A stretch of DNA of 64,000 bases from Methanomassiliicoccales archaeon LGM-RCC1 (GTDB lineage Archaea; Thermoplasmatota; Thermoplasmata; Methanomassiliicoccales; Methanomethylophilaceae), in assembly GCA_030168575.1 (NCBI GenBank), contig CP115555.1, forward strand, positions 1,302,001 through 1,366,000, in the 5' to 3' direction. A model generated the notes under the pieces. It was given only the letters and a program-made list of their open reading frames with translations. It did no database searches and was not told where the DNA came from. Within the stretch, counting starts at the first letter, position 1, and each line of letters opens with the position of its first letter. Of the stretch, positions 6,874 through 50,614 are shown piece by piece. Both the position numbers and the translations under genes were made by a program.

Positions 6874-7257
6874 TCATTCGATCTTAGAGACGTACATGAG
6901 AGGGTACTCAAGATCCTCGTCGTATCTCATCTCGGCGGTCACCCTAGAGTCACCGAGGGCTATGACGACCTTGGCATCGATCATGTCCCCTGTCAGGGAA
7001 ACATAAGAGTAGGTGTCCCCGTCGGAGACGAATGAATCGCGATCGATCTTGATCTTCGCGCATTCTACGTACGGCTGTACCTCGATGGTCCTGGAGATGG
7101 TGTCCTCGAGCTGTTTCACCGTATCGATGTTCACCGGAGTGCCCACGAACTGATGGTAGACCGTTGCGAGCTTGATACCGGCTTCGAAGATCGCGCGCTC
7201 CCTCTCGGTGCAGGAGAACTTGTCGTTGGCGGTTTTCTCTCTGGACGTCATCGTCAT
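6874..7257 (-). CDS. mptD: Archaeal dihydroneopterin aldolase (MptD family)
   Basis: Splits 7,8-dihydroneopterin to 6-hydroxymethyl-dihydropterin on the path to tetrahydromethanopterin or a related pterin. The 127-residue length and the stretch ERAIFEAGIKLATVYHQFVG near residue 20-40 match the archaeal MptD (old DUF372) family, as does QPYVECAKIKID. The ATG overlaps the stop of citrate synthase (ATGA), so it is the second gene of that operon. This pairing of central metabolism with pterin synthesis has no obvious biochemical link. Confidence 0.88.
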   Translation of the reverse strand: MTMTSREKTANDKFSCTERERAIFEAGIKLATVYHQFVGTPVNIDTVKQLEDTISRTIEVQPYVECAKIKIDRDSFVSDGDTYSYVSLTGDMIDAKVVIALGDSRVTAEMRYDEDLEYPLMYVSKIE

Positions 7258-8603
7258 CTCTTCTCGAGGGGGATGTAGTCGCGGGGTTCGTGGATGTTGA
7301 CATAGGCGGGCCTGAGGATCTTGTTGGAGGTGATGAGCTCCTCAATGCGGTGGGCGCTCCATCCGATGATCCTAGCCGTGGCGAACAGAGGGGTATAGAC
7401 CTCCTTCGGGATGTTCAGCATATCATAGACGAAACCGCTGTAGAAATCCACGTTCGCACAGACGCTCTTGTTGTTGTGCTTGTGCTCCATGATGAGCCCG
7501 GGTGCGATCTCCTCGATGTTGTGGTAGTACTTGAAGTCCCTGAGGCGGCCCTTCTCCTTGGCCAGGTCCTGGACGAATGATTTGAATACGTTGGCACGGG
7601 GATCCGATTTGGTGTAGATCGCGTGGCCCATACCATAGATGAGTCCGGATTTGTCGAAGGCCTCTTTGTCGAGTATCTTGTTCAGATATGCTTTGAGGGC
7701 CTCTTTGTCGTCAGGATCCTTCACGTGCTTCCTGATGTCGGACATCATGTCCATGACCTTCAGGTTGGCTCCTCCGTGTTTGGGGCCTTTGAGAGAGGAC
7801 ATCGCCGCGGCTATGACAGCATAAGTGTCGGAACCGCTGGAAGTTGTCACCCTGGTTGTGAATGTCGAGTTATTCCCTCCGCCGTGCTCCATGTGCAGAA
7901 CAAGAGCGAGATCGAGGACGGTGGCCTCGAGCTGAGTGTACTTCTTGTCAGGCCTCAACATGCGCAGGAAGTTCTCGGCCGCGGAGAGCTTTGGATCGGG
8001 GTGATGGATGTACATGCTCTGGCCGTTGAGGTAGTGGTTGTAGGCGTGATAGCTGTACACCGTGAGCATGGGGAATACCGTGATAAGGTAGAGACACTGC
8101 CTCAAGACGTTCTCGAGGTCGTTGTTGAGAGCATCCTCATCATAGGATGCGAGGAACAGCACTTCTCTGGAGATGGCGTTCATGACGTCCTTGCTGGCCG
8201 CCTTCATGATGACGTCCCTGGTGAAAGTCCTGGGGAGTTTGCGGTTCTTGTTCAGGATGTCCTTGAACTCCGAGAGCTCCTTCTCTGTAGGCAGTTTGCC
8301 GAACAGGACCAGGAATGCGACCTCTTCGAACCCGTACCTCTTCCTGAGGAATCCGTTGGTGAGGTCCTCGATCGAGTATCCGCGGTAGCGGAGGATTCCT
8401 TCGCATTCGGTCTTGACACCATCGACCATGATGGTTCCGTCGACCTGGGAGACCTCGGTGAGACCTACGATGACTCCGTTCCCGTTAGCGTCACGAAGAC
8501 CCTTCTTGACATCATACTTGGAGTATTCGCTGACCTGGAAGCTGTCGTTCTCGACGCACAGTTTCTACTTGGACTCGATGAAATCCTGGTAAACCTTTTT
8601 CAC
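7254..8603 (-). CDS. gltA: Citrate synthase with in-frame TAG at codon 13
   Basis: Condenses acetyl-CoA and oxaloacetate to citrate. Read from GTG 8603 through an in-frame TAG (8565-8567) the protein is 449 residues, the length of the citrate synthase subtype whose N-terminus reads YxKYDVKxGLRDxNGxGVxVGLT; here SKYDVKKGLRDANGNGVIVG follows the TAG. The strong ribosome site GGAGGTGA sits four bases before the GTG, and no such site precedes the internal ATG at 8429. That ATG would remove conserved N-terminal sequence. Core signatures FRYRGY-like ILRYRGYSIEDL, EHGGGNNSTFTTR and GPKHGGAN are intact. TAG probably encodes pyrrolysine. mptD follows with an ATGA overlap. Confidence 0.93.
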
Positions 8604-46102: not shown

Positions 46103-46759
46103 ATGGACAGCGAGAACCTCAAAGCAAGCGCAGAGGCAGGAGACGTCGAATCCCAGTACAAGCTAGGACTCAACTACATCTATGGTACGGATGTCCCTAA
46201 GGACACCACCAAGGCCGCTGAGTGGTTCAAGAAGGCGGCAGATCAGGGATACCTCCCCGCACGCAGGGAACTCGCTTTGCTCCTGGCCGCCGGTGACGGT
46301 GTCGATGTTGACATGGAGAAAGCCATTCAATACCTCTCGGAGGCAGCTGACCAGCTCGATCCCAGCGCATTGTACCACCTCGGACTCATGTATGAGGTAG
46401 GAATCGGAATCCCCAAGGATCTCCAAAAGAGCGTCAGGATGCTCGCTTACGCGGCAGAGATGGGATATCCCGGAGCGGATACAGACGCTGAGAGAGTCGA
46501 TAAGATACTCTACGACGAGAGGGTCAAGAAGCTCCGCGCCAGACCTCTCTTGCACCTCCAGATTTCCGATGTGGATGTCGAGGCTGCTTGCTGCAAGCCG
46601 ATGCTGGACCATCTCATATCCGAGGATATAGTCTTCATCGACTCCAGGACAGGCCCCGCACTTCTGGGCGAGGACAAGGACGGAATGGACGCTGTACTGG
46701 ACCACTGCCCGTTCTGCGGAGCACCTATCCAGATCATACCCCGCGACACCAAGTTCTGA
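46103..46759 (+). CDS. Sel1-repeat protein with C-terminal zinc-ribbon-like motif
   Basis: A 218-residue protein with three or so Sel1 repeats (KLGLNYIYGTDVPKDTTKA, HLGLMYEVGIGIPKDLQKS) and a different C-terminal third ending in HCPFCGAPI, which looks like half a zinc ribbon, with CC at about 178. The stop overlaps the ATG of the amber-containing gene (TGATG/ATGA arrangement), so they are translationally coupled. Confidence 0.88.
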   Translation: MDSENLKASAEAGDVESQYKLGLNYIYGTDVPKDTTKAAEWFKKAADQGYLPARRELALLLAAGDGVDVDMEKAIQYLSEAADQLDPSALYHLGLMYEVGIGIPKDLQKSVRMLAYAAEMGYPGADTDAERVDKILYDERVKKLRARPLLHLQISDVDVEAACCKPMLDHLISEDIVFIDSRTGPALLGEDKDGMDAVLDHCPFCGAPIQIIPRDTKF

Positions 46760-47235
46760 TGAATATGGACGATACGGACCAGCAGATAGAGTTCCTGAAG
46801 GAGAAGCTCTCCATTCTCAGGGAGTAGATGCCCGAGACACCTCTCGATGCCGAGAAGAAGGCCATGGAGGTAGGGCTCATAGAGGAACAGCTGGCCGAGC
46901 TCTATCAGCAGAAAGGAATGCTGACAGACGATTCTCCCAAAACATCTAACGATCTCGATTCGCTCTCAGAGGAGATCGGATCCATCACGGACGAGCTGAT
47001 GGAGATCGAGATCAAGATGCTCAAAGCGGAGATGTCCGGAGACGACAGCGAGAAGATCAAGCTTCAGCTATCCGCCAACGCACTCAAATCCAGGAGGCAG
47101 GCTCTTATCGATGAGGTTAGGAACATGAACTCCCAGACCACAGACTCGTCCGGAGATCTGGAGGCCCGCATCGCCGCTCTGGAGAAGGAGGTCAGCGACC
47201 TCAAAGCATTAATCTACCAATTAATTACGAGATGA
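46759..47235 (+). CDS. Coiled-coil protein with in-frame TAG at codon 23
   Basis: From ATG 46759, which overlaps the stop of the Sel1 gene, the frame runs 22 codons (MNMDDTDQQIEFLKEKLSIL-RE), then TAG (46825-46827), then on without break to TGA 47235, giving 158 residues. Both parts are heptad-rich helix (QQIEFLKEKL before; EEQLAELYQQKGM, ELMEIEIKMLKAEM after), so one coiled coil spans the TAG. The ATG right after the TAG has only AGGGAG three bases away. Coupling to the upstream stop favours the full-length reading. TAG likely encodes pyrrolysine. The phosphoribosyltransferase gene follows five bases later. Confidence 0.83.
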
Positions 47236-47239
47236 TACC

Positions 47240-47800
47240 ATGGAAACCAATGAGTTGGAGAAGGCCTATCTGGCCTCTAAGGTCGTGATGAAGGGTGATT
47301 ATCCCTATTTCATCAACGCCATTTCGGACGGAAACCCCTCTATCTCACGCGAGCTTCTCGACCAGATAGTCGGAAACTTCCAGAGATTGACAGACCTCGA
47401 CACCGACGTCTATCTAGCTCCGGAAGCTATGGGAATCCCCATCGCAGCTGCACTTACCATGCGCACCGGAGTTCCATTCCAGATCATCCGTAAGAGAGGA
47501 CATGGCATCCCAGAGGAGATCAAGCTGAAGAAGGCCACCGGCTACGAGACCGCCGATATGTTCCTGAGCTTCATGGAGCCGGGTACAAAGGCCATACTGG
47601 TCGATGATGTTGTCAGCACTGGAGGTACTCTGGAGGCCATCGTGAACATTTTACGTGAACACGACATCATCATCGAAAAGGCCCTCTGCGTCCTGAACAA
47701 GTGCAAGGATCTTGATGCCCTTTCCGAGAAGATAGGAATACCGATCTACACGCTCATCGATGTCGCTGTCGAGGACGGAAAACCCGTTCTCAGACAATAA
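47240..47800 (+). CDS. Archaeal purine phosphoribosyltransferase (hypoxanthine/adenine type)
   Basis: Transfers ribose-phosphate from PRPP to a purine base for salvage. 186 residues with the PRPP loop AILVDDVVSTGGTLEAIV near residue 115, the PEAMGIPIAAALTMRTG base-side loop and PFQIIRKRGHGIPEE. This is the archaeal Hpt/Apt-like form. Sitting inside a run of Sel1, coiled-coil and protease genes is unusual for a housekeeping salvage enzyme. TAA stop. Confidence 0.9.
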   Translation: METNELEKAYLASKVVMKGDYPYFINAISDGNPSISRELLDQIVGNFQRLTDLDTDVYLAPEAMGIPIAAALTMRTGVPFQIIRKRGHGIPEEIKLKKATGYETADMFLSFMEPGTKAILVDDVVSTGGTLEAIVNILREHDIIIEKALCVLNKCKDLDALSEKIGIPIYTLIDVAVEDGKPVLRQ

Positions 47801-49463: not shown

Positions 49464-49856
49464 ATGAACAACAAACCCGTATCGAAGGAAAAACTCGTGG
49501 AACTCTTCCATAACGGGGCTATCCGCAAGCTCGAGGAACATGAGATATTCGCTATGCGTGCCAATACTAATCCGGATCGCGAGAACGTGTACTCTGAACT
49601 AAGCACCTATGCGGACATCGAATCGCGCTACTACGATATGGCCGAGCATTACTATGCTGAAAACTTCTCTTATTTCGAGAATGGATCGAACGAAGATCTT
49701 CTAGAAATGACGAAGGAGAGCGAGCTGCCTCCAAGATTGTATGCAGAGTATCTGAGGGAGATCGATCCGGCCGAGAGGCTGAATGAGAAGATCACCCATG
49801 CCTACCTCACTAATCTGAAGAAGAACATCACCAAGATAAGGGACGAGATGAGATGA
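49464..49856 (+). CDS. Hypothetical helical protein, first of a two-gene unit
   Basis: A 130-residue, charge-rich and predicted helical protein that I do not recognise. It starts in AT-rich DNA containing AGCT-motif words (49430-49460) and its stop overlaps the ATG of the amber gene downstream (ATGA). The two are therefore translated together and are probably functional partners. No membrane segment or motif. Confidence 0.65.
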   Translation: MNNKPVSKEKLVELFHNGAIRKLEEHEIFAMRANTNPDRENVYSELSTYADIESRYYDMAEHYYAENFSYFENGSNEDLLEMTKESELPPRLYAEYLREIDPAERLNEKITHAYLTNLKKNITKIRDEMR

Positions 49857-50614
49857 TCTACGATTCGGATGAATGTGCTGTAATCGAATCTATCCGGAAC
49901 CGCAAGAGTTCTGAGCGCGTCATATACAACAGCATGGAGTTCCTTCCACCTTCTTTCATTTCCGCTATGGACTGTCAGATGCAACTGGATCTGTCGAGAT
50001 GCGATGCGATGCTCAGGATAGCAAAGAACGATTTCTCGAATCTTGACGAGGATCTCATTGCCCTGGCCCCTCACCCCATCTAGCTTCCTGTAGAATTGCA
50101 CCAGCATTACATGGAAAGCCTGACGGAAGAGGACATGCGTATGGAATCTGCATTCGTCGCTTACTGCAACATAGGCATCGGCGCATACTATCATTTCTCC
50201 ATGGCGCAGAAATGGTCCGAGGAGATATTGGCGGGGAGCAAAGCAGTATCATATTCCGATTTCATGGCGCTCCAGCGTCTGAGCGAATTACTGAGGATTG
50301 CAGGAGAGCGTTGCGATTTGATGAAGGATGAAACGGATCTGCCGTATGTCGAAGCAGGCCGGTATATCGAATGTATGCTCGATGAATGCAGCATCCTCAT
50401 GAGGACTCATCTGTCCAAGATAGTTACGATGGATGAGCTGTGCTATCATTTGGATTTCAGGGAGTATGTTGATGTCGATGCATTCAACAAGTTATTCCTT
50501 CCTGATTATGCACCGGAGGTACGCAGAGATATAATCGCTTTCCAGAACAAATTTGCTGCAAGAGGCGATATCTTGTATGCTTTGCTCATCGTTTCTGCTA
50601 AGATGCAGCTATAA
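49853..50614 (+). CDS. Hypothetical helical protein with in-frame TAG at codon 77
   Basis: From ATG 49853, in an ATGA overlap with the preceding gene, 76 codons are followed by TAG (50081-50083) and 176 more codons in the same frame to TAA 50614, giving 253 residues. The second part has no ribosome site and no ATG until 50111, and its composition (FSMAQKWSEEILAGSK, RLSELLRIAGERCDLM) matches the first part's helical style. A single gene read through TAG is the best model. I do not recognise the family. A long AT-rich convergent region follows. Confidence 0.75.

Follow-up and report, generated by a model that had tools for sequence, protein, structure and literature searches.

Is the in-frame TAG at positions 46825-46827 of this stretch (the window, 64,000 nucleotides in length) the end of a short peptide, or is it a sense codon inside one longer gene? 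The first-pass annotation had proposed a pyrrolysine (Pyl) candidate in a frame opening at ATG 46759, which overlaps the previous stop, with the TAG at codon 23. This arrangement is present in the sequence: the A of ATG 46759 is the last base of the TGA stop (46757-46759) of the upstream Sel1-repeat gene (46103-46759, forward strand; Pfam PF08238), and the frame 46759-47235 holds a single TAG, followed directly by ATG 46828, and ends at TGA 47233-47235. DNA alignment showed that the 3' end of the Sel1-repeat gene and its junction with the next gene are conserved with the orthologues. Downstream lie a phosphoribosyltransferase-domain gene (47240-47800, forward strand; Pfam PF00156) and a trypsin-like protease gene, and the genome is a single contig of 1,664,211 bases. 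Our results suggested that the TAG is read as pyrrolysine within one forward-strand gene, 46765-47235, encoding a full-length helical protein of 156 residues; from the sequence evidence we put the probability of this reading at about 0.92.

The orthologues were the first line of evidence for this reading. Family matches were observed in 25 of 60 relatives, every one within the same genus, and a genus-level search recovered them in 26 of 31 genomes. A full-length close orthologue is present in eight genomes, the window's own counted (L006 and L008-L011 come from the same genomes as L057, L053, L054, L055 and L056, and each genome was counted once). Sense codons at position 23, to which the first-pass annotation had looked as a check, were indeed found: the site is CAG (Gln) in six of the seven other orthologues and GAG (Glu) in the seventh. 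In all seven the frame is open through the site, the N-terminal segment is kept, the previous gene adjoins in the same way, and Met22 is in frame with no stop ahead of it. Orthologues starting at the equivalent of ATG 46828, an observation that the first-pass annotation had set against its own reading, were looked for and not seen; the open N-terminal frames in 7/7 relatives rule out such a start. The ATG at 46828-46830 codes for an invariant methionine, present in 8/8 aligned close orthologues, and is probably internal.

The closest relative, L052, shares 91% amino acid identity with the window protein and 85.4% DNA identity over 4,172 bases, and its CAG differs from the window TAG by one transition. 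The same genome, searched as G060 and carrying the identical protein, was labelled 'same species' by whole-genome comparison. Among the matches in the 31 genomes of the genus search, the window copy is the only one bearing TAG, so that TAG stands at this site in one genome; apart from it, the family showed a single internal stop, a TGA in a weak match from G018. The comparison also corrected the start of the gene. Since 7/7 orthologue starts align with 46765 and L052, whose frame begins at that equivalent, has no ATG overlapping the previous stop, the ATG at 46759-46761 was ruled out as probably not the start, and the candidate pyrrolysine becomes residue 21. As judged by codon usage, the 20 codons before the TAG, counted from 46765, score +17.2 as coding sequence, against -13.4 and -4.3 for the other frames.

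In support of the previous results, the segment ahead of the TAG evolves as protein-coding sequence. Compared with L052, codons 2-20 carry six synonymous and two non-synonymous differences (pN/pS 0.08), distributed as 0, 1 and 7 over codon positions one, two and three, while codons 22-50 carry eight synonymous differences and no non-synonymous ones (pN/pS 0.00). Against the six other relatives pN/pS was 0.27-0.59 before the TAG and 0.09-0.20 after it, and among the seven relatives, with the window copy left aside, 0.43 and 0.16, respectively. The 19 codons before the TAG are thus under purifying selection, yet they evolve faster than the next segment, in the relatives too.

The genome also carries what is needed to read the codon. 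A tRNA-Pyl with anticodon cta lies in the 20 kb preceding the window (L051) and is followed there by PylS, PylB, PylC and PylD, each above its own curated cut-off (TIGR02367, TIGR03910, TIGR03909 and TIGR03911), so that the gene set for Pyl synthesis and decoding is complete; PylS was above cut-off in 7/7 genomes searched. A distant paralogue of the helical protein was noted in this region as well (L051:1603-2232, forward strand; match G000:C1:1283840-1284130), with mtmB and the pyl cluster a few kb away. As a positive control, both mtmB genes of the window's genome contain a single TAG. mtmB is present in 7/7 genomes, and 14/14 long matches contain exactly one TAG; of four short pieces, three have no stop and one has a TGA. 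None of the 56 rough window genes, called from codon usage with our own script (starts are approximate and some ORFs doubtful), ends in TAG, 52 using TGA and four TAA. Comparably, TAG makes up 1.6% of the stops of 'Ca. Methanomethylophilus alvus', for which 16 Pyl proteins besides the methyltransferases were predicted (PMC4153887), and 46 genes with in-frame amber codons were described in ISO4-H5 (PMC5011839). No RNA element stimulating readthrough was found downstream of the TAG (z -1.08, no covarying pair); according to PMC4153887, such an element is not obligatory. The proposal that this TAG is a pyrrolysine candidate is therefore strongly supported by the CAG and GAG orthologues, the full set of Pyl genes and a rough gene set in which no gene stops at TAG.

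Where the residue would sit in the protein differs from what had been proposed. The first-pass annotation had a heptad-rich helix running unbroken through the TAG, but AlphaFold2 (7 sequences) predicted helices at residues 3-20, 26-53, 59-91, 94-125 and 129-155 (mean pLDDT 82.2; pTM 0.39, the arrangement of the helices being uncertain), which places residue 21 first in a loop, 21-25 (Pyl-Met-Pro-Glu-Thr), at a hinge between the first two helices. Across 19 aligned family members P23 and P26 are invariant, and this, together with the predicted loop, rules out a continuous coiled coil through the TAG. Note that L020, whose site residue is F, was left out of this alignment because its frame runs beyond the family's end, and that the weak matches L023, L025-L030 and L034 are not in it. 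In the 11 distant aligned members the residue at the TAG site is M, I, M, D, I, L, S, S, S, R and E. The loop, the two prolines and this variability point to a hinge that tolerates substitution, as opposed to the core of a heptad. The protein has no Pfam family above cut-off and its site is variable in the family, which sets it apart from the MtmB-type methyltransferases with catalytic Pyl; a scaffold or adaptor role would suit its helical build.

These observations can be accommodated by a simple history. A recent C-to-T transition would have turned the Gln codon CAG at residue 21 into TAG. Because this lineage has charged tRNA-Pyl and scarcely stops at TAG, pyrrolysine would be inserted at the new codon and production of the full-length protein would continue. 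Since Q, E, D, M, I, L, S and R are all tolerated at the hinge position in the family, the change was probably near-neutral, and not catalytic, and the site looks like a case of near-neutral codon capture.

Could the TAG nevertheless be a true stop? Helix 1 would then be lost, and the products would be a peptide of 20 residues and, from ATG 46828 right behind it, a 135-residue protein made by reinitiation or from a start of its own. We consider this very unlikely. The ATG does come straight after the TAG, but the invariance of Met22 means that this ATG predates the TAG. Similarly, a GGAG located 3 bases before ATG 46828 is a better Shine-Dalgarno-like match than the one at 46765; however, L052 lacks this GGAG, which in the window stems from Arg-Glu codons, and many of 44 window starts have no Shine-Dalgarno match, so that the difference between 46765 and 46828 says little either way. 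A stop at this position is also at odds with the purifying selection still acting on the N-terminal 20 codons relative to L052, with the inclusion of the segment in all orthologues, with the genes to decode TAG carried by the genome, and with the 0/56 rough window genes that end in this codon. The first-pass annotation had found a stop with a gene on the very next codon odd. The arrangement is real, but a stop with an immediate ATG and at least 100 open codons occurs at four places in the window, both strands considered, and is by itself not rare there. A restart directly after the TAG may still give a minor product or occur when Pyl runs short.

A related idea is that TAG and ATG together form a Pyl-dependent switch, giving the 156-residue form when Pyl is available and, when it is scarce, a stop and restart that yield the 135-residue form without helix 1. 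We think it improbable that the site works in this way; if it did, the form of the protein would report Pyl or methylamine supply. A sequencing or assembly error at a true C (CAG) is less probable still: TAG is confined to one of the eight close orthologues and the nearest relative has CAG, but the third-position differences around the site are those of ordinary divergence, and other window TAGs are common to the separately assembled G060, so TAG inside genes is normal here.

Reading the TAG as pyrrolysine, we compared the gene with known cases. Pyl in the methylamine methyltransferases MtmB, MtbB and MttB is catalytic and conserved. The window gene is alike in that its TAG would be read by the same machinery, in a genome that has mtmB with TAG, but its Pyl position is variable and lies in a hinge. 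In Methanosarcina, Pyl reportedly occurs at a non-essential site of tRNA-His guanylyltransferase, attributed to neutral evolution and experimentally tested (Heinemann et al., 2009). A non-essential Pyl site would be common to both; the protein and the lineage are different. Kivenson and co-workers are said to have claimed in 2025 that all TAG codons in archaea are pyrrolysine, and their paper may already cover the window site; a paper declaring this was not found in literature searches that could have shown one.

The nearest parallel is the set of predicted Pyl proteins outside the methyltransferases of 'Ca. Methanomethylophilus alvus' (PMC4153887, Table 7). The two cases share the type of organism, the complete pyl set, an in-frame TAG against sense codons in relatives and the rare use of TAG as stop. 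Table 7 has no 156-residue entry, and the window gene is unrecognisable there by size or annotation, although a 148-residue hypothetical protein, AGI85290, may be the same gene. The method described there accepted a TAG only if BLAST hits to either side of it matched, and an upstream piece of 20 residues would probably be too short for that. Pyl use in ordinary genes of the group was thus already known, and the window gene is apparently absent from the published list of 2014.

Finally, three further genes in the window contain TAG, which relatives either have as well or replace by sense codons, in line with the pyrrolysine reading; they may be more interesting than the helical protein gene. 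The citrate synthase gene (7254-8603, reverse strand) has TAG at codon 13, common to G060; the site is R or C in the six other genomes searched, and in one of these, G009, a TAG occurs at another position of the protein. An OmdA/YdeI-type gene (30575-31177, reverse strand) has TAG at codon 52, common to G060 and, in the same column, to G009, whereas G013 and G024 have E and G024 carries its own TAG at another place. The third, a 253-residue gene with no Pfam match (49853-50614, forward strand), has TAG at codon 77, an alignment column that is TAG in five of eight genomes, and a second TAG column is common to three of the eight. The proteins sharing TAG are 88% identical for the closest relative and only 45-50% identical beyond it, and TAG was seen in 0/14 more distant genus matches; these would be long-lived Pyl sites, perhaps under selection. 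In the searches of these three genes in eight genomes every internal stop reported was TAG, with no TAA or TGA.

With the site described here, the ordinary genes of this archaeal group in which TAG is read as an amino acid gain a clear and recent case of CAG-to-TAG capture. Annotations that end at TAG lose the N-terminus of such proteins, and short upstream pieces (20 codons here, 12 in citrate synthase) can slip past earlier screens. Proteomics on this gene and the neighbouring ones with TAG could test whether the codon is a plain sense codon in this organism.
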